Assembly: GCF_004145845.1 (NCBI RefSeq)
Contig: NZ_SELP01000001.1
Location: 744,001 to 808,000 of the forward strand
DNA from: Loktanella sp. IMCC34160
GTDB lineage: Bacteria; Pseudomonadota; Alphaproteobacteria; Rhodobacterales; Rhodobacteraceae
Direction of reading: 5' to 3'
Length of the DNA: 64,000 nucleotides
Position numbers and translations under genes: made by a program. Position 1 is the first letter of the stretch; each line of letters begins with the position of its first letter. Below are positions 43,819 through 54,361 of the stretch, one piece after another. The notes under the pieces were generated by a model. The model was not told the origin of the DNA, did no database searches, and saw only the letters and a list, made by a program, of their open reading frames with translations.

Positions 43819-44256
43819 CTAGACGTCCATCCAGATCGTCACCGGCCCGTCGTTGACAAGGCTGACCTGCATATCCGCGCCGAACCGCCCGGTTTCGACC
43901 GGAACACCCTGCGCCCGCAGCGCATCTGCGAAGGCAAGGTAGAGCCGTTCACCCACTTCAGGCGCGGCGGCAGCGGAAAACCCGGGGCGGTTGCCGCTGC
44001 GGGTGTCGGCAGCGAGGGTGAACTGGCTGACCACAAGGGCCGAGCCGCCAATGTCCACGACCGAGCGGTTCATCTTGCCCGCCTCGTCCTTGAAAATGCG
44101 CAGCTTGGCCACTTTGGCAGCCAGTTTCGCCGGGGCGTCCTCTGCGTCCCCGTCCATCGCGCAGACCAGAACCAGAAGCCCCTGACTGCAGGCGCCGACC
44201 AGATCCCCATCCACGTGAACGGAAGCCTGCGTGACCCGCTGGATCAGTGCCCTCAC
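43819..44256 (-). CDS. dtd: D-aminoacyl-tRNA deacylase
   Basis: 145 residues, full length. The two active-site motifs are present: [18 protein letters not shown] and the C-terminal [11 protein letters not shown] (Gly-Pro of the NxPVT type). It hydrolyses D-amino acids from mischarged tRNAs. The start overlaps the stop of the PfkB kinase gene by 4 bases. Confidence 0.95.
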
Positions 44257-45158
44257 AGCTCTGACGCCCAGGGCGGGTTGGCCCCGGCGCGGCTGACGGT
44301 GACTGCCGCAGCCTTTGCCCCAAGCTCAACCGCCGCCCGCAGGGTTGCCTCGTCCGCGTCGTCCAGCCCGTCAAGGGTCAGCGCCCCGGCCTGATGCAGC
44401 CCGGCAAGGAAGCCCGCGTTGAACGTGTCGCCGGCGCCGACGGTGTCCACCACCTCGACCCGGGTTGCGGGGACGTCAAAGGTGCCGTGGTCACAGATCA
44501 CCGTCACCCCATCCGCGCCGCGCGTGACCAGAACGACCGAGGCGGCGCAGCTGTCGCGGAAGGCTTCGCCGTCGGTGCTGCCGGTGATCCATTCCAGATC
44601 TTCGTCGGACACTTTGATGATGTCGGCACAGGCGAACATGACGTTCAGCCGTTCCCGATAGGCTGCCTCGTCCTTGATGAAGCCGGGGCGGATGTTCGGG
44701 TCAACCATCACCGGCGCGGTTCCGGCGACCCGCCGGGCGAGCGCCTCGTAGGCCTGGCCGCAGGGTTCCACCACCAAGGATATCCCGCCGAAGAAATAGG
44801 CACTTACCGAGGTGTCGGGCAGGTCGTCGGGGCGGAGCATCCGCCCGGCGGTGTTTTCATCGTAAAAGGCATATTTGGCGTGGCCGTTGGTCAGGGTGAC
44901 AAAGGCCAGCGTGGTCGGCCTGTCCGACCGGATCAGGTGGCCGGTGCCCACCTTAGAGGCTTCGAGCGAGGCCAAGAGCTGTTGCCCGAACAGGTCGGTC
45001 GAGACGCCCGACAGGAACCCGGTCGGCACCCCGAGCCGCCCCAGTGCGATGGCGGTATTGAACACCGCACCGCCCGCATAGGGGGCAAAGGCGGGTTCAC
45101 CGGCGGTGCTTTCACGCGGCAACATGTCAATCAGGGCTTCGCCACAGGCAAGGATCAT
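44253..45158 (-). CDS. PfkB-family carbohydrate kinase (fructokinase-like)
   Basis: 301 residues. Ribokinase fold: [17 protein letters not shown], the first signature [20 protein letters not shown], and the ATP/catalytic signature [18 protein letters not shown] with the catalytic Asp. Fructokinase is the likeliest activity given the N-terminal pattern. It stands 73 bases behind the zinc-ribbon gene on the same strand and overlaps dtd. Confidence 0.9.
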
Positions 45159-45231: not shown

Positions 45232-46353
45232 TCAGCCCTGTTGCGTCGCCATGACATAGCCGACCGCCCCTGCCACGATCAGCCCGATCAGGACGGCAAA
45301 GGCGATCTTCCATGCCGACCAGGGCCGTTCGCCCTGCACCCGTCCGGTCTGGCCGTTCACGACGAAACGATAGGTTTCGCCCCGGTATTTGTATGCGGCC
45401 ATCCAGACCGGCAGCAGGATATGCTTGAAGGTCACGGCACTGACCGCGGTGTCAATGTTGTGGACCCGTTGATGGTCGCCGCCGATGTCGAATTTCACGT
45501 CCCGCAGGATGATCCGGTCCATGATCGTCCGCGCCTCGGTATAGCCTTCGGCCAGTTCGACCTGATAGCCCTCGGCCCGGAACCCGGCAAGATAGTCCGG
45601 CGCATAGGGTTCCAGCCGCGACAGATCCCAGGGTTCCAGCGCGTCGGTGTAGCGTTTGGGCAGGCTGCGCGAGGCCAGCACCAGCACATCGTCGAAGAAC
45701 CGCGCCACCCGGCCGGATTTCGGCCGCCAGCGGGTCTTGCGCACCCGGACCGTCTGTTTCTTGCCGTCGCGCACGACGGTGCGGGTTTCATAGTAATCGT
45801 CGCCCCGTTCGCCCCGGTAGCTGGACTTCGTATCGGCGTCGAAGGTCCAATAAGGGACATAGATGCCGTTCATCCGGCGTCCCTTGCGGGCGTAATCCTT
45901 GAGCCCGTTCGGCGCAAACCACAGCCGCCCCAGCCAATCGGTCATCGCCTTGCGGGCCTGGGTTTCGTCCAGAACGAAGGGGACCAGCCCCTTGGGTTTG
46001 ATTTGCCGGTGCGTGCCCGTGTCGGTGACGACCGGGGTGGCGCAGAACGGGCATTCGGCGGCGTGGTCCTTTTCGCCCAGATCGGTCTGCGCCCCACAAT
46101 TGGGGCAGGTCACGACACGGGTTACTTCGATCTCGGTCTCGGGCAGGTGGTTTTCGATGGCGGTCCGGAAATCCAGTTCGCGGATCGCCCCGCCGGCCCA
46201 GGGCCCCCGGTCGATCGCCTGCTCGGCGCCGCAATGGTCGCAGATCAGCCGGTCGGCGCCGGGGTCAAACCGCATGTCCGCGCCGCATTGCTCACAGGGA
46301 AAGCGGTGTTCGGTTTCGGGCGCGGTGGTGGCAGAGCCGTCAAAGTCGGACAT
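45232..46353 (-). CDS. zinc-ribbon protein with C-terminal membrane anchor
   Basis: 373 residues. Two zinc ribbons lie near the N-terminus: CEQCGADMRF..CDHCG and CPNCGAQTDL..CPFCATPV. A long middle part follows (LVPFVLDETQARKAMTDWLG, MNGIYVPYWTFDADTKSSYRG), and a single C-terminal helix (WKIAFAVLIGLIVAGAVGYVM). Such proteins are annotated as TFIIB-type zinc-ribbon or primosomal N'-like but are not helicases. Last gene of the TelA/SPFH operon; role unknown. Confidence 0.75.
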   Translation of the reverse strand: MSDFDGSATTAPETEHRFPCEQCGADMRFDPGADRLICDHCGAEQAIDRGPWAGGAIRELDFRTAIENHLPETEIEVTRVVTCPNCGAQTDLGEKDHAAECPFCATPVVTDTGTHRQIKPKGLVPFVLDETQARKAMTDWLGRLWFAPNGLKDYARKGRRMNGIYVPYWTFDADTKSSYRGERGDDYYETRTVVRDGKKQTVRVRKTRWRPKSGRVARFFDDVLVLASRSLPKRYTDALEPWDLSRLEPYAPDYLAGFRAEGYQVELAEGYTEARTIMDRIILRDVKFDIGGDHQRVHNIDTAVSAVTFKHILLPVWMAAYKYRGETYRFVVNGQTGRVQGERPWSAWKIAFAVLIGLIVAGAVGYVMATQQG

Positions 46354-46411
46354 GTCGGGGCGCTTTGGTCTGGATGGGGTGGGGCAGGGCGGGCCTGCCC
46401 CCTTGCAAGGC

Positions 46412-47530
46412 TCAGATACCGGGGGGCGGGGGTGGCGGCATCACCGTGAACAACTGCGCCAGTTCGGCCACGTCGCCTGCGGGCATCCAGCCGTCCTGCC
46501 CCTGCGTCCAGACCATGCTGGCGCGGGTCAGGGCGCCATCGGTGACCATCCGGCCCATCGACGCCTTGGAATAGGGGCCTTTCACCTCGCCCCCTTCGGC
46601 GATGTGCCAGACATGTTCGACGGGGGGCGGGGGCGGCGGGGCCATCGGGGCGGCCTGTGGCGCGGGGGCCCGGCCCCAGGGGCCCGATTGGGTCGCCATC
46701 TGCTGTGCCATGGCCAGGCCCATCCCGGCGCCCATGCCCGCGCCCATCGCGCCCGAGGCATCGCCGCCCTTCATCAGCGCCTCGGCGGTGGCGTATTTCA
46801 GGTGATCGCCCAGATCGCCCGTCAACCCGCGCGAGGTGCGGGTATCCAGCGCCGCCTCGACCGCCGGGGGCAGGCTGATGTTTTCGATATAGAGTTCGGG
46901 GACGGACAGGCCGTATTGCTCCATCACCGGTTCAATGGCCGTGGCGATATGTTTGCCCAGATCGGCGGTATTGGCCGCCATATCCAGAACCGGGATGCCG
47001 GATCCGGCGATCACCCGGCTGAATTCCTGAACGATGATGTTGCGGATCTGGAAGCTGATCTCGTCCATCGTAAACTCGCCGTCGGTGCCGACGATTTCCG
47101 ACATGAAGCGGGCCGGGTCGGAGACTTTGACCGTATAGGTGCCAAAGGCGCGGATGCGGGTCGGGCCGAATTCCGGATCGCGCAGGATGATCGGGTTCTT
47201 GGTGCCCCACTTGAGGTTCGCAAATCGGGTGGTGTTGATGAAGTAGACCTCTGACTTGAAAGGCGACTGGAACCCGTGGTCCCAGTGCTGCAACTTCGTC
47301 AGGATCGGCATGTTGTTTGTTTCCAGCATGTAGAGGCCGGGGGTGAAGACATCGGCCAACTGCCCTTCGTGCACGAAAACGGCGGCCTGCCCTTCGCGCA
47401 CCGTCAACTTGGCCCCGTATTTGATCTCGTGGCCTTCGCGTTCGAACCGCCAGACCATCGTGTCGCGGGTGTCATCGACCCAATGGATCACGTCGATGAA
47501 TTCGCCCTTCAGAAAATCGAGAATGCCCAT
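46412..47530 (-). CDS. SPFH-domain protein with C-terminal GYF-like domain
   Basis: 372 residues. The N-terminal three quarters are an SPFH/band-7-like domain of the 'virion core protein' type (MGILDFLKGEFIDVIHWVDD, LTVREGQAAVFVHEGQLADVF, FGTYTVKVSDPARFMSEIVG). A glycine/alanine/proline-rich stretch (GAMGAGMGAGMGLAMAQQ) leads to a GYF_2-like module (HVWHIAEGGEVKGPYSKASM, GQDGWMPAGDVAEL). No clear membrane helix is present. It probably scaffolds a membrane-associated assembly with TelA and the zinc-ribbon protein. Confidence 0.85.
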   Translation of the reverse strand: MGILDFLKGEFIDVIHWVDDTRDTMVWRFEREGHEIKYGAKLTVREGQAAVFVHEGQLADVFTPGLYMLETNNMPILTKLQHWDHGFQSPFKSEVYFINTTRFANLKWGTKNPIILRDPEFGPTRIRAFGTYTVKVSDPARFMSEIVGTDGEFTMDEISFQIRNIIVQEFSRVIAGSGIPVLDMAANTADLGKHIATAIEPVMEQYGLSVPELYIENISLPPAVEAALDTRTSRGLTGDLGDHLKYATAEALMKGGDASGAMGAGMGAGMGLAMAQQMATQSGPWGRAPAPQAAPMAPPPPPPVEHVWHIAEGGEVKGPYSKASMGRMVTDGALTRASMVWTQGQDGWMPAGDVAELAQLFTVMPPPPPPGI

Positions 47531-47549
47531 GTGGTGGTTCCTTTCTTGG

Positions 47550-48509
47550 TCAGACGGGGCCTGTTTCCAGGTATTCGCGTGCCAGTTGCCGCGCGATTGG
47601 CGCGGCCTCTGCGGCGCTCATTCCCGGGTGCAGCCGGTCGTCATACAGCAGTTTGAGGAGGAGTTCATCGTGGCTGGTCAAAAGCCCGAATTCCTCGTCG
47701 TCGTTGAAGATAGAGGGGCGGGCGCGGGGGCTGTCGTTGGCCAGCCCCATGCCCTGCGCCAGTTCCTCGTGAATACAGGACAGGCGCATCATGTCGGGAT
47801 GTTCCGCCCGGATCAGGACGATTGCCTGCCGATAGGTTGCGGTGCCCGGCACGAAGGTGCCGATCACGATGCAATACTGGTCGCGCGGCAGGGTCAGGAA
47901 GGCGTTGACCGAGGCCTGCGACAGGTTCGGCTCCAGCGCCAGCAGCTCCGGTCCAAAGGCGCGGCGTTCGGCCTCGCTCAGGAACAGGACGTGGAAATTC
48001 GGGTTGGCGGTGGTCTGGGTGATCGGCACGCCGGTCAGCCCCGACAGACGCCGGGCAAAACTGGCCACTGCGTTGCGGTCGGTCACCCGCTGTTCAAACC
48101 CGACACTGTCGCCGAAGCGGATGTTCATCCGGATCGGGCTGTCCCAGCGATGGATGGAATTGATCCGCTGCTGCGACCGAAGAACACCGCCGTTGTCGGT
48201 GTATTCCTCGAACAGGGCGATCCGCACGAAGTTCTGCGCCAGTTGCACATCGGTAAAGGGGGTGTCAGGCCCGCCCCCGTCGGTGCGCAGCAACCCCTGC
48301 GCCAGCAGGTCGGCCTGCACCCGGCGATAATACAGCGCCAGCGCCTCGCTTTGCGCATCCGGCACCGGATCGGGCGGCGGGGCGACCCGCGCTTCGGGCC
48401 GGGCCGAGGTGTCGGGTGGGTTGGGGCCGCCAAAAGGCAGGTCGTCGCAGGCGGCAAGGGACAAGGCCCCTGCCACCAGCGCGAACCGAAAACCCCAGCG
48501 GCCCCGCAT
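47550..48509 (-). CDS. DUF2927 lipoprotein
   Basis: 319 residues from ATG 48509. Signal peptide with lipobox (VAGALSLAAC), so a lipid-anchored envelope protein. The DUF2927 domain holds NFVRIALFEEYTDNGGVLR and the HExxH-like CIHEELAQGMGLANDS, in which His-Glu-Glu followed by Gln-Gly recalls a metallopeptidase helix. Overall a protease-like role is possible but unproven. The start lies just inside the TelA operon, 7 bases after telA. Confidence 0.82.
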   Translation of the reverse strand: MRGRWGFRFALVAGALSLAACDDLPFGGPNPPDTSARPEARVAPPPDPVPDAQSEALALYYRRVQADLLAQGLLRTDGGGPDTPFTDVQLAQNFVRIALFEEYTDNGGVLRSQQRINSIHRWDSPIRMNIRFGDSVGFEQRVTDRNAVASFARRLSGLTGVPITQTTANPNFHVLFLSEAERRAFGPELLALEPNLSQASVNAFLTLPRDQYCIVIGTFVPGTATYRQAIVLIRAEHPDMMRLSCIHEELAQGMGLANDSPRARPSIFNDDEEFGLLTSHDELLLKLLYDDRLHPGMSAAEAAPIARQLAREYLETGPV

Positions 48510-48516
48510 CCGGGAC

Positions 48517-49704
48517 TTATCCCGCGGCCGTGCCGATGGTGTCGCCGACCCCATCGTTGCGGGCCTTGGCGCTGGCCAGCGTGGCCTTCAACTCGGCTTC
48601 CATCTTCTGCAGCTCGATCTCGGCCTCGGCCCGCTTGCGCTTGCCTTCGTCCGCGATTTGCAGGCTTTCGTTGATGGTGGCGATCAGGTTCTCGTTCGCC
48701 TCTTTCACAGCGTTGATGTCGAAGACGCCGCGTTCCATTTCCTCGCGGACGACCTTGTTGGCCTCGCGCAGGTTCTTGGCGTTGGCGGTCAGCAGTTCGT
48801 TGGTCAGATCGTTCGCCTCGCGCACGGCCTTTGCCGCCTCGGCGGACCGCTGGATGGTGACGGCCTGTGCCAGCTGGGTTTCCCACAGGGGCACGGTGTT
48901 CACGAGGGTCGAGTTGATCTTGGTGACCAGCGACTTGTCGTTTTCCTGAACCAGACGGATCGAGGGCAGCGACTGCATCGTGACCTGGCGGGTCAGTTTC
49001 AGGTCGTGCACCCGGCGTTCCAGATCGTCGCGGGCGGCGCGGAGGTCGCGCAGTTCCTGCGCCTTCATCACACCCTGATCTTCGGGCGCGGCGGCGACTT
49101 CGGCCTCTTTCGCCGGGATGATCTTTTCGTCCAGTTCCTTCAGCTTGGCCTCGCCCGCGGCGATGTAGATGGCAAGCTCGTCGTAGAAGGTCAGGGTTTT
49201 GTCATACAGAACGTCAAGCGATTCAATGTCCTTCAAAAGCACATGTTCGTGGCGCAAAAGGTCATCAGTGATCTTGTCGATCTGGCCCTGAACGCTTTCG
49301 AAGCGGGCAACGAATTTGGCCATCGGCGCGGCGCGGCCCAACAGCTTTTCCCACCATGTCCGTTTGCGGCGCACGTCCAGTTCGGACACCGAAAAGCCCC
49401 GGATCGTGGTGACGATGTCGCGCAGGCTGTCGCCGGCCGGGCCGACGTCCTTGTTGCGGACGCCCTGAAGCATCGACTGGCTGATTTCCTGCAATTCGGC
49501 CTGCGCGCGGCTGCCGAAACGGACGATGGAATTGGTGTCGCCCATGTCGATCTCGCCCATGGCGCGGGTGATCTCGGCGCTGGTCGGCGCGTCGGCGGCA
49601 TCCAGCGTGATCAGCTCCCCTCTTGGTTCGGGCAGGACCACGGCGGTGACCTTTTCAACCTCGGCAAGGGTCGCTTCGGCCTTCTGGCGGATGGTGTCGG
49701 ACAT
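48517..49704 (-). CDS. telA: TelA family toxic-anion resistance protein
   Basis: 395 residues, highly helical and charged. TelA motifs: DTNSIVRFGSRAQAELQEIS, RKRTWWEKLLGRAAPMAKFV, RQVTMQSLPSIRLVQENDKS and VPLWETQLAQAVTIQRSAEA. The family was named for tellurite resistance, but the chemical role is not known; it often occurs with XpaC-like proteins, as here. Soluble coiled-coil-rich protein, third in a six-gene operon. Confidence 0.92.
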   Translation of the reverse strand: MSDTIRQKAEATLAEVEKVTAVVLPEPRGELITLDAADAPTSAEITRAMGEIDMGDTNSIVRFGSRAQAELQEISQSMLQGVRNKDVGPAGDSLRDIVTTIRGFSVSELDVRRKRTWWEKLLGRAAPMAKFVARFESVQGQIDKITDDLLRHEHVLLKDIESLDVLYDKTLTFYDELAIYIAAGEAKLKELDEKIIPAKEAEVAAAPEDQGVMKAQELRDLRAARDDLERRVHDLKLTRQVTMQSLPSIRLVQENDKSLVTKINSTLVNTVPLWETQLAQAVTIQRSAEAAKAVREANDLTNELLTANAKNLREANKVVREEMERGVFDINAVKEANENLIATINESLQIADEGKRKRAEAEIELQKMEAELKATLASAKARNDGVGDTIGTAAG

Positions 49705-49722
49705 GTTTTCTGTTCCCTCTCG

Positions 49723-50601
49723 TTACTCGGGCCTGACGCCCTCGCGCTGCAAACGGTCGCGCAGCACCTTGATTTCAATTTCCATATCGCTGCGGTCGTC
49801 CGTCAGCATCTTGCGGGTCTTGGCGTCGAAGCTTGTTTCCAGATCGGTCAGCAGCTGTTCGAAATCGCCGCGCGCGGCCGGGTCTGCGCCGCGCCGGTAG
49901 AGGTCGGCGAATTTTGCGGCGGCGTCGCGCGCGCCCATCAGGTAGACACCGAGGTATTTCCGGGCGCCGGTCAGGTCGCGGGGGTCTTCTTCGACGGTGC
50001 GGATCATCTCGCGGGCGGCGTTCTGGAACTGCACCACGCGCAGGTCCAGCTTGCGGTCCTTCAGGCTGGCAATGTGGTCGGCCATTGTGGAAAGATAGGC
50101 CTCTGCCTCGTCCACGACCCGGGCAACGCGGTCTTGCTGGAAGGTGTCGATCCCTTCCATCCGCTTGTCCGACAAGGGGTCGATCCCGAAGGCCGCCACA
50201 TGCAGCCCGGTGGCCGCGATGCCAAAGGCGACAGCGCCGATCAGACCGGCGTCGCCGGTCATGGCCGCAAGGAAGACACCGATCCCGGTCAGGGCCGAGG
50301 CAAGCATCTTGCGGGGCAGGGCGGGGCGGCGGGCGATCTTGCGGGCGTCATAAGCGGCTTCGGCCCGTAGGCCTTCGTGCAGAAGCCATGCCGCAAGCGC
50401 AAGAATGCCCGCGCCGATCAGGCCCAGCATCAGTCCGGTCGGCCCTTCGTTCAGCGAGGTGAAGGCAAGGATGACAGGCGGCAGGAACAAAAGGTTGGCC
50501 TTGGTTCCGGCCGCATCGACCGTGACCTTGACCGATCCCTTGGGCGCTGTGCCCTTGCCCTCGCCATCGGGGCTGAATTCTCCGCCATAGCGTTTCGCCA
50601 T
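49723..50601 (-). CDS. XpaC-like (5-bromo-4-chloroindolyl phosphate hydrolysis) protein
   Basis: 292 residues from ATG 50601 (MAKRYGGEFSPDG), overlapping the stop of the small upstream gene as TGATG. Two pairs of hydrophobic segments (FLPPVILAFTSL, LIGAGILALAAWLLHEGL, MLASALTGIGVFLAAM, LIGAVAFGIAATGLHVAAFG) are followed by a helical cytoplasmic tail (FQQDRVARVVDEAEAYLSTM). Members are found next to TelA. The hydrolysis name comes from an old phenotype and is not evidence of enzyme activity. Confidence 0.85.
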   Translation of the reverse strand: MAKRYGGEFSPDGEGKGTAPKGSVKVTVDAAGTKANLLFLPPVILAFTSLNEGPTGLMLGLIGAGILALAAWLLHEGLRAEAAYDARKIARRPALPRKMLASALTGIGVFLAAMTGDAGLIGAVAFGIAATGLHVAAFGIDPLSDKRMEGIDTFQQDRVARVVDEAEAYLSTMADHIASLKDRKLDLRVVQFQNAAREMIRTVEEDPRDLTGARKYLGVYLMGARDAAAKFADLYRRGADPAARGDFEQLLTDLETSFDAKTRKMLTDDRSDMEIEIKVLRDRLQREGVRPE

Positions 50602-50822
50602 CAAACCGCCCCCAGCCAGCCCGTGACCACGCCGAACATCAGCGCAAGCAACAGGAGATAGGCGATGGTGCTGAACGTCTTGCCCATGGGCACGTCCACT
50701 CCTCTGCCGGCCCTTGAAACCTCTGCCGCGCTTGTGGCCAGCACGCGCAACAAGATGATGACAGTGATCAGGGCCAGGCCCACAACCGCCACCAGAACAA
50801 AGAAAAGGATGATCCGTCCCAT
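50601..50822 (-). CDS. small two-helix membrane protein heading the TelA operon
   Basis: 73 residues. Two helices (IILFFVLVAVVGLALITVIILL and TIAYLLLLALMFGVVTGWL) with a short basic loop (SRAGRGVDVPMGK). The stop overlaps the XpaC start, so it is translated with it. The family is not recognised. It is the first gene of the unit; the promoter must be in 50823-50994, where I see no clear -35/-10. Confidence 0.7.
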   Translation of the reverse strand: MGRIILFFVLVAVVGLALITVIILLRVLATSAAEVSRAGRGVDVPMGKTFSTIAYLLLLALMFGVVTGWLGAV

Positions 50823-53258: not shown

Positions 53259-53662
53259 CCCGCGTCGCGCTTGCCGGTCTTGGGGTGCTTCTGGTCGCGG
53301 CGCTGGGCTATGCCTTCTGGCTGGTTGGCGGGCCGGAGCAGGCGCGGGTCGACACCCGCGACCAGCAACGCCTGCAAAACCTGGAAACCGTGATTGGCCA
53401 TCTGCGCTGCACCGACCCGTCGGTCGTCTTGCCGGACAATCTGCGCGACATTGCGGATACGCGGTATTGCGACCGGTCGATGTGGGGCTTTGACCGGGCG
53501 GTCACTGACGAAGAATTGCCAATGGTCTACACGCGCCTGTCGGATACCGAATTCCGCCTGTGTCAGGAATTCGAGGATATCGACCGACTGTCCAGCCTGC
53601 TTCGCCTGCCTGAAGGGCTGGATCCGGCGACCGGATGCTATACCGGCCGCCTGCGTCCCTGA
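53255..53662 (+). CDS. small membrane-anchored protein, partner of the DUF5671 gene
   Basis: 135 residues. One N-terminal helix (VALAGLGVLLVAALGYAFWLV) then a periplasmic domain with three cysteines (HLRCTDPS, DTRYCDRS, FRLCQEFEDI) and one near the end (TGCYTG), an even number that may form two disulfides. No family known to me. The stop lies 3 bases from the end of the convergent UPF0173 gene. Confidence 0.72.
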   Translation: MTRVALAGLGVLLVAALGYAFWLVGGPEQARVDTRDQQRLQNLETVIGHLRCTDPSVVLPDNLRDIADTRYCDRSMWGFDRAVTDEELPMVYTRLSDTEFRLCQEFEDIDRLSSLLRLPEGLDPATGCYTGRLRP

Positions 53663-53665
53663 CCG

Positions 53666-54361
53666 TCAGAGGCTGATCGGCTCCAGCACGCTGGGTTCGA
53701 TCAGCCGCACGTTGGCGGGCAGGCCGTTCTTCAGGTCCTCGGCGTCCTGTGCAAGGATCGGGAAGGTCTTGTAGTGGCAGGGGATCACCACGTCGAAGTC
53801 GAAGAAACGGCGCGCCGCGTAGGCTGCCCCCTCCATGTCCATCGTGTAGTGCCCACCGGCGCAGAGGATGCCGATGTCTGGTTTGTAGCGGTCGGCGATC
53901 ACCTCCATATCCGCCATCACGTCTGTATCGCCCGAGACATAGATGGAATGATCTTCGCCCCGGATGATGAACCCGGCCTCGCCGCCCGCGTATTGCACGC
54001 CACCCCGGAAATCGATGCTGGAGGAATGCAGCGCATGCACCATGCTGACCCGCGCCGCACCCAGCGCGATGGTGCCGCCCTTGCCGAAGCCAAGGGTCTG
54101 GACCCCATCTTCGCTGCCCAGCAGCTCTGCCAGTTCGTGGATGCAGGCAATCGGCACCCCGTGATCCCGCGCAATCCCGATCGCATTGGCTGCGTGATCG
54201 CCGTGGCCGTGTGTCAGAAGGATCGCGGTGACGCCCGCCACGGCCTCTGCCTCGCGCTCTTCGGGGAAGGCGGGGTTGCCGGTCATCCACGGGTCGATCA
54301 GCAGCACCTGATCCTCGATCTCGATCCGAAATCCGGAATGTCCTAGCCAGGTGATTTTCAT
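53666..54361 (-). CDS. UPF0173 metal-dependent hydrolase
   Basis: 231 residues, beta-lactamase-like fold: MKITWLGHSGFRIEIEDQVL, HGHGDHAANAIG, YVSGDTDVMADMEVI and IPCHYKTFPIL complete the metal site. UPF0173 proteins are conserved and of unknown substrate. Stands alone on the minus strand. Confidence 0.9.
   Translation of the reverse strand: MKITWLGHSGFRIEIEDQVLLIDPWMTGNPAFPEEREAEAVAGVTAILLTHGHGDHAANAIGIARDHGVPIACIHELAELLGSEDGVQTLGFGKGGTIALGAARVSMVHALHSSSIDFRGGVQYAGGEAGFIIRGEDHSIYVSGDTDVMADMEVIADRYKPDIGILCAGGHYTMDMEGAAYAARRFFDFDVVIPCHYKTFPILAQDAEDLKNGLPANVRLIEPSVLEPISL

Follow-up and report, generated by a model that had tools for sequence, protein, structure and literature searches.

The gene set at the locus

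A stretch of 64,000 nt from the genome of Loktanella sp. IMCC34160 (hereafter the window, within which operon positions are counted) contains six open reading frames (ORFs), all on the minus strand, that extend from position 50822 to 45232, are separated by short gaps or overlap slightly, and encode a small membrane protein, an XpaC-like protein, TelA, a DUF2927 lipoprotein, a soluble SPFH protein with a C-terminal GYF module and a double zinc ribbon protein (Table 1). These six genes are a real, contiguous and conserved set of Rhodobacteraceae, and the operon looks like two older modules, XpaC-TelA and SPFH-ribbon, to which DUF2927 has been added. An original prediction, made from the letters of the window, had already described a one-strand, six-gene operon here; the ORFs are found exactly within these limits, and Pfam confirms XpaC, TelA, DUF2927 and SPFH with its GYF module.

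The ATG of xpaC at 50601 makes this gene overlap the stop of the first gene, and the gaps that follow (XpaC-TelA, TelA-DUF2927, DUF2927-SPFH and SPFH-ribbon) comprise 18, 7, 19 and 58 bases, respectively. The listed ORF of the DUF2927 protein starts at 48554; the ATG at 48509 positions the lipoprotein signal (...LSLAAC). The Pfam scores are 366.8 bits for TelA, against a curated cut-off of 30, and 87.7 bits for XpaC, against a curated cut-off of 29.8. Pfam gives no match over the cut-off for the ribbon protein, no match whatever for the 73-aa protein, and no match to PspA or TPM among the six proteins. The genome assembly (3.77 Mb) contains a single TelA and a single Band_7_1 match.

Table 1. 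Coordinates of the operon genes (positions in the window) and of two additional genes found at related loci (positions in the respective locus)
Gene product	Position	Strand	Evidence and remarks
Small membrane protein, 73 aa	50601..50822	-	ORF and hydropathy: hydrophobic segments 4-22 and 53-71
XpaC-like protein (PF10112)	49723..50601	-	Pfam 1.3e-24; by hydropathy, a helical cytosolic-type domain preceded by two membrane segments
TelA (PF05816)	48517..49704	-	Pfam 1.2e-109; no membrane segment by hydropathy; predicted long helical hairpin
DUF2927 lipoprotein (PF11150)	47550..48509	-	Pfam 4e-60; predicted matrix-metalloproteinase fold, altered zinc motif
Soluble SPFH protein (PF13421, Band_7_1, YdjI type) with C-terminal GYF_2 (PF14237)	46412..47530	-	Pfam 1.4e-99 / 1.7e-19
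Double zinc ribbon protein (YdjG type)	45232..46353	-	One membrane segment near the C-terminus (350-368), by hydropathy
Second XpaC-like gene	L094 6468-7268 (operon orientation)		Also in L106, L107, L110, L118, L126, L133, L142, L146 and L153
Cytochrome b561-like gene	L127 5762-6286	minus	PF01292 1.8e-21 (one tested)

Conservation in Rhodobacteraceae

In a sample of 90 genomes of Rhodobacteraceae, each from a different genus, TelA and XpaC are each matched in 81, the ribbon protein in 79, Band_7_1 in 82 (one of these, in G154, being a weak partial match) and DUF2927 in 86, mostly with 2 or 3 copies each. The TelA, XpaC and full-length SPFH matches fall in the same 81 genomes, that is, the three are jointly present or missing in all 90. 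The genomes without any of the three are G109, G117, G124, G125, G128, G140, G154, G156 and G184. The absence in G117 is in part an assembly gap because a contig starts with the tail of an SPFH gene and continues with the ribbon gene; among the eight absences that are left, G128 is only 74% complete.

For gene order, the TelA loci of the 80 other family genomes that have this gene were compared. XpaC, TelA, DUF2927, SPFH and the ribbon gene follow one another in this order on one strand at 66 of these loci, and several of the 14 loci without the full order stop at a contig edge. The matched regions are at most 350 bases apart for XpaC-TelA at 78 of 79 loci, for TelA-DUF2927 at 74 of 76, for DUF2927-SPFH at 61 of 72 and for SPFH-ribbon at 38 of 68, the last interval often containing additional genes. 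Among the best 80 named SPFH relatives (from Yoonia, Roseovarius, Sulfitobacter, Ruegeria, Octadecabacter and others), the five large genes are in order at 72 loci; seven of the eight exceptions lie on short stretches, and the remaining one, L314 from Planktomarina, lacks DUF2927 at this place. Being chosen by SPFH similarity, the named sample overstates conservation.

The SPFH and double zinc ribbon proteins

The SPFH and ribbon proteins form a pair of the YdjI/YdjG type, the comparison with the Bacillus proteins being made by description. Hydropathy analysis predicts no membrane segment in the SPFH protein of the window and in 70 of its 71 relatives, and a single one in the ribbon protein and in all 65 relatives of the latter. 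The eight ribbon cysteines are invariant (68/68 sequences), and the search for sequence relatives of the ribbon protein in the PDB gives weak matches only (best E 0.014). A homologue from Enterococcus (24.4% identity over 93%, E 9e-27) is encoded between an SPFH gene and a gene for a TPM-domain protein, which matches the reported gene content of Bacillus ydjGHI. In the pspA-ydjGHI operon of Bacillus subtilis, a Band_7_1 SPFH protein likewise stands beside a double-ribbon protein with one transmembrane (TM) segment (PMC8581546; PMC11237479), and YdjG is described as consisting of two ribbons, a YpeB-like/NTF2-like middle domain and the TM segment (PMC11237479). According to the accessible part of the Bacillus study, recruitment of PspA to the membrane requires YdjI, both YdjG and YdjH are needed for the formation of YdjI and PspA foci, and mutants in ydjG or ydjH have an abnormal cell shape under alkali shock (PMC8581546). 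Unlike pspA-ydjGHI, as far as it is described in these sources, the six genes of the window lack PspA and TPM and include XpaC, TelA and DUF2927, and the SPFH protein carries a GYF_2 module where YdjI has a C-terminal zinc ribbon. The original prediction was too pessimistic in stating that no part has a defined activity, since homologues of the SPFH and ribbon proteins have been studied. Another likeness is seen in the SPFH loci of the DUF350/spermidine-synthase type (L183; related operons are described in PMC11237479), where a Band_7_1 SPFH protein is followed by a ribbon-bearing protein; unlike in the window operon, SHOCT takes the place of GYF at these loci, and the similarity of their long ribbon protein to that of the window is limited to the ribbons.

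The C-terminal module of the SPFH proteins varies across relatives (GYF_2, HTH_17, SHOCT or ribbon). In the window protein, GYF_2 sits between two polyproline stretches, and the last 25 residues contain at least three consecutive prolines in all 71 family members and at least four in 65 of them. Ten of the 15 SPFH proteins examined from outside the family, which come from several phyla and are few and non-independent, were scanned for domains: the five with GYF_2 all have three prolines in a row within the last 25 residues, and none of the five without it (HTH_17, SHOCT just below the cut-off, or ribbon) has such a run. A classical ligand of GYF domains is PPG[FILMV]. This motif is found at the C-terminus of just 11 of the 71 relatives (26 if alanine is allowed), and for this reason only the looser statement on proline runs is used here. 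These sequence patterns suggest that the GYF module might grip the polyproline tail of a neighboring SPFH subunit and so mediate self-association, a pairing that hints at the mode of assembly of such SPFH proteins.

XpaC, TelA and the small membrane protein

The first protein of the operon has two hydrophobic segments, as originally described, but this is not the common form: in relatives, the small hydrophobic ORF is often shorter, contains a single hydrophobic segment and ends at the start of xpaC. Under a crude hydropathy rule, such an ORF is present in 57 of 79 relatives, of which 55 have it ending at most 12 bases from the XpaC match; at L145 and L154, it lies beyond the usual distance. 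Directly upstream of xpaC, 10 of 79 family loci (Table 1) and 6 of 74 named loci encode a second, diverged XpaC-like protein. For TelA, the PDB contains only weak sequence matches (best E 0.012).

The closest described parallel is lmo1966-lmo1967 of Listeria, an XpaC-TelA/YaaN pair, in which xpaC and telA likewise form a putative operon; the pair answers a bacteriocin, and a telA-type mutant shows increased sensitivity to nisin and tellurite (PMC12791056). Genes for SPFH, ribbon and DUF2927 proteins are not mentioned in the accessible part of that report. The membrane-stress reading of the original prediction fits both this pair and Bacillus YdjG/YdjI with PspA (PMC8581546; PMC12791056, as far as accessible), and because homologues of both modules show envelope phenotypes, envelope stress is the best-supported theme for the operon. 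The quality-control role that the prediction also named is speculative.

DUF2927: a predicted matrixin fold with an altered zinc motif

The AlphaFold2 (AF2) model of the DUF2927 protein has a mean predicted local distance difference test score (pLDDT) of 91.6. A Foldseek search of the PDB started with this model gives a best E of 1.6e-3 with the probability of 1.00 (no match reached E 0.001), and the best 50 matches are all matrix metalloproteinases (MMPs), karilysin or snapalysin. VIA-align, for which the best 50 matches are MMPs and karilysin, aligns 147 residues with MMP-7 (Z 12.2, root-mean-square deviation 2.6). In the PDB, sequence relatives are limited to weak matches (best E 0.032). 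The matrix-metalloproteinase (metzincin, matrixin) fold is thus confidently predicted from the model.

The characteristic motif HExxHxxGxxH of this fold is replaced by EExxQxxGxxND (E248, E249, Q252, G255, N258 and D259), the register being set by helix 239-253 and glycine 255, that is, by secondary structure and spacing and not by coordinate superposition. Residue counts were made, guided by a hidden Markov model, on 100 distinct DUF2927 relatives, including 21 from other families or lineages than that of the window; these remain of 105 rows after the second copy of the window protein (L204) and four duplicates were taken out, and the weakest relative, L222, gave no match and was excluded. 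E248, E249 and G255 are conserved in all 100, Q252 and D259 in 99 and N258 in 98; cysteines 213 and 245 are each present in all 100. HExxH is found neither in the window protein nor in any of the 100 relatives. H247, the source of the originally described "HEE-type helix", is a histidine in 76 of the 100 relatives and in none of the 21 from outside the family; the helix is not a zinc-peptidase motif. Residues 260-275 of the window protein contain no methionine, the position of the Met-turn not being fixed by superposition. Of 76 family members, 69 have a strict lipobox, and six of the remaining seven have a near-lipobox.

With HExxHxxGxxH reading EExxQxxGxxND and HExxH missing throughout, DUF2927 proteins are probably non-catalytic or bind another metal. 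Of the "possible lipoprotein peptidase" of the original prediction, the fold therefore survives, as a prediction, and catalysis does not. The metzincin pseudopeptidases ADAM11 and ADAM23 are similar in that the fold is retained and the zinc-binding histidines are replaced, partly by glutamine; unlike these proteins, as they are described in the accessible part of the source (PMC11266112), DUF2927 proteins are bacterial, matrixin-sized lipoproteins with nearly invariant replacements. A family of bacterial proteins with the matrixin fold in which the zinc site is uniformly altered would clearly exemplify the reuse of a fold. A second, longer DUF2927 protein (452 aa, PF11150 1.3e-48; contig C10, 774483-775082; L186 7398-8756) is encoded elsewhere in the window genome; it shares the altered motif and is not near TelA or SPFH.

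Modules outside the family

Two genomes from other alphaproteobacterial families (G057 and G064) have contiguous XpaC, TelA, SPFH and ribbon genes with no DUF2927 between them; genome-wide, DUF2927 is missing in G057 and present in two copies elsewhere in G064. Each pair also occurs by itself. At L226, L228, L230 and L187, XpaC is encoded less than 2 kb from TelA without SPFH, and the SPFH-ribbon pair is found without TelA at L178-L182 and in Vibrio, Comamonas, Tsukamurella and Enterococcus. In a phylum sample of 160 genomes, strong matches of TelA and SPFH lie side by side only in the family of the window, and DUF2927 is present in 30 of 200 phylum-sample genomes, several of which lack TelA in the TelA search (the samples differ in size). 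The full combination is rare outside Rhodobacteraceae. The full-set conservation to which the original prediction looked is thus a property of the family (66/80 and 72/80 loci), within which eight relocations are nevertheless seen and DUF2927 is separable.

A putative inner-membrane assembly and its alternatives

The operon might encode an inner-membrane surveillance assembly built from the two older modules plus DUF2927, a reading to which we assign a probability of roughly 45%. In such an assembly, the tail-anchored double-ribbon protein (YdjG type) would hold an oligomer of the soluble SPFH protein (YdjI type) at the membrane, with SPFH subunits linked via GYF modules that grip C-terminal polyproline tails. 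XpaC, a membrane protein with two segments, would hold the long helical TelA at the same place, with the small membrane protein sitting alongside XpaC, and the XpaC-TelA pair would stand where Firmicutes have PspA. DUF2927, located on the opposite side of the membrane, could be a non-catalytic sensor, an inhibitor or a docking part. The gene set with its conservation and domain identities, the predicted fold and motif loss of DUF2927 and the distribution of the pairs are computational findings. We infer the contacts between modules from synteny, and the putative topology, membrane-stress role and DUF2927 function from homologues together with synteny.

Several observations weigh against this assembly, in which the link between the two pairs is hypothetical. 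In G099, G113, G157, G178 and G180, the set is split between the two pairs, each of which (XpaC-TelA and SPFH-ribbon) remains together; in these five genomes, DUF2927 is found with TelA in 3, with SPFH in 1 and with neither in 1. Among the eight clear relocations, both pairs are kept in five, XpaC and TelA are split in one (G118, where ~200 kb separate them), and SPFH and ribbon are split in two (G120 and G159, the latter a fragmented assembly, where the ribbon gene lies away from SPFH and keeps its usual kinase and deacylase neighbors). The notion that every relocation keeps both pairs together is ruled out by these last three genomes, and the two modules are not rigid. In G173, the ribbon gene is not at the locus, and the SPFH and ribbon genes are separated by a cytochrome b561-like gene at up to 12 loci (Table 1). 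DUF2927 is kept in G109, G125, G156 and G184 though the rest of the set is missing; in three of these genomes, it is located near rluB, the usual neighbor of the set, and in G184 a short XpaC-like ORF (6.5e-7) is found at the same place. In the other direction, the set is present at L135 and L314 with no recognized DUF2927 between TelA and SPFH.

The structural evidence on TelA and the distribution of PspA belong on the same side. The TelA model is of middling quality (mean pLDDT 68.3), and its fold matches in the PDB are generic helical bundles (several alpha-pore-forming toxins, designed bundles and coiled coils), the best Z being 11.9, to unrelated bundles, with the guide value of the tool for such folds at about 13; for a PspA/ESCRT-III-like TelA, no PspA appears among the best 50 matches in either structure list obtained with this model. 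PspA itself is matched over the cut-off in 20 of the 90 family genomes, 18 of which also have TelA (18/81), including the genome of the window, where the PspA-family match (4e-18) is on another contig, C16, at 53259-53930 (L236), with no operon families in the 15 kb stretch examined there. Because of this co-occurrence, TelA does not simply replace PspA, and the candidate role of a strict PspA replacement is not supported.

Alternatively, the genes may share ancestry and a promoter and form no joint complex, with XpaC-TelA, SPFH-ribbon and DUF2927 each doing separate jobs: the two pairs are at different places in five genomes, each pair is found alone in other lineages, and DUF2927 parts from the rest in both directions. 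The joint presence or absence of TelA, XpaC and full-length SPFH across all 90 family genomes, along with the recurrence of the four-gene core in two other families, argues the opposite way, and we regard separate jobs as somewhat unlikely.

It is less probable still that a rebuilt site (E248, E249, Q252, N258 and D259) makes DUF2927 an active enzyme or a metal-dependent protein and that the operon may handle metals or toxic anions. The near-invariance of the replacement residues (98-100 of 100) goes beyond what simple decay would leave, and the name of TelA points to metals or toxic anions, as does a TerC-family gene that is encoded between rluB and the small ORF/xpaC at 14 of 80 family loci (L131, L150, L156, L158, L096 and others), adjoins the set at 30 of 80 named loci and is retained in G156 and G184 (L170 and L171), which have lost TelA and SPFH. 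However, TerC is absent from the locus of the window, the register of the residues is inferred, and glutamine and asparagine are generally poor ligands of transition metals. Comparable replacements are also seen in inactive ADAM metzincins (PMC11266112, in its accessible part). A reading of the operon as a defense system was dropped, PADLOC giving only weak matches (best E 0.0038), to zinc-ribbon regions.

Returning to the surveillance assembly, its most specific form, in which DUF2927 proteins would be matrixin-fold lipoproteins with the zinc site rebuilt to a near-invariant Glu-Glu-Gln-Asn-Asp, acting as far-side sensors that report through TelA-XpaC-SPFH-ribbon in a PspA-free membrane guard of Rhodobacteraceae, is a speculation that we consider improbable as it stands. 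In the open-licence literature (subscription journals and preprints being outside this scope), the papers listed on at least two of TelA, XpaC and SPFH were nearly all unrelated, none was found on toxic anion resistance with SPFH or on DUF2927, and the word TelA is absent from the accessible parts of two Psp surveys; the parts are known, and the combination and a zinc-less metzincin lipoprotein were not found in that literature. Through the operon, TelA/XpaC and DUF2927, both orphans of long standing, become linked to an SPFH-ribbon membrane module that has been studied, which provides testable partners for both.

Neighboring genes

In the window, the set is followed, at 43819-45158, by genes for a sugar-kinase-like and a D-aminoacyl-tRNA deacylase-like protein (named by eye), and these two genes stay with the ribbon gene at many loci, even after its relocation. 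At L173 (6843-7331) and L174 (3918-4367), the strand opposite to the ribbon gene carries a nearby gene for Hsp20. The SPFH-ribbon pair on a plasmid of Vibrio coralliilyticus has an annotated TIR-domain gene a few kb upstream (L190 980-1849).

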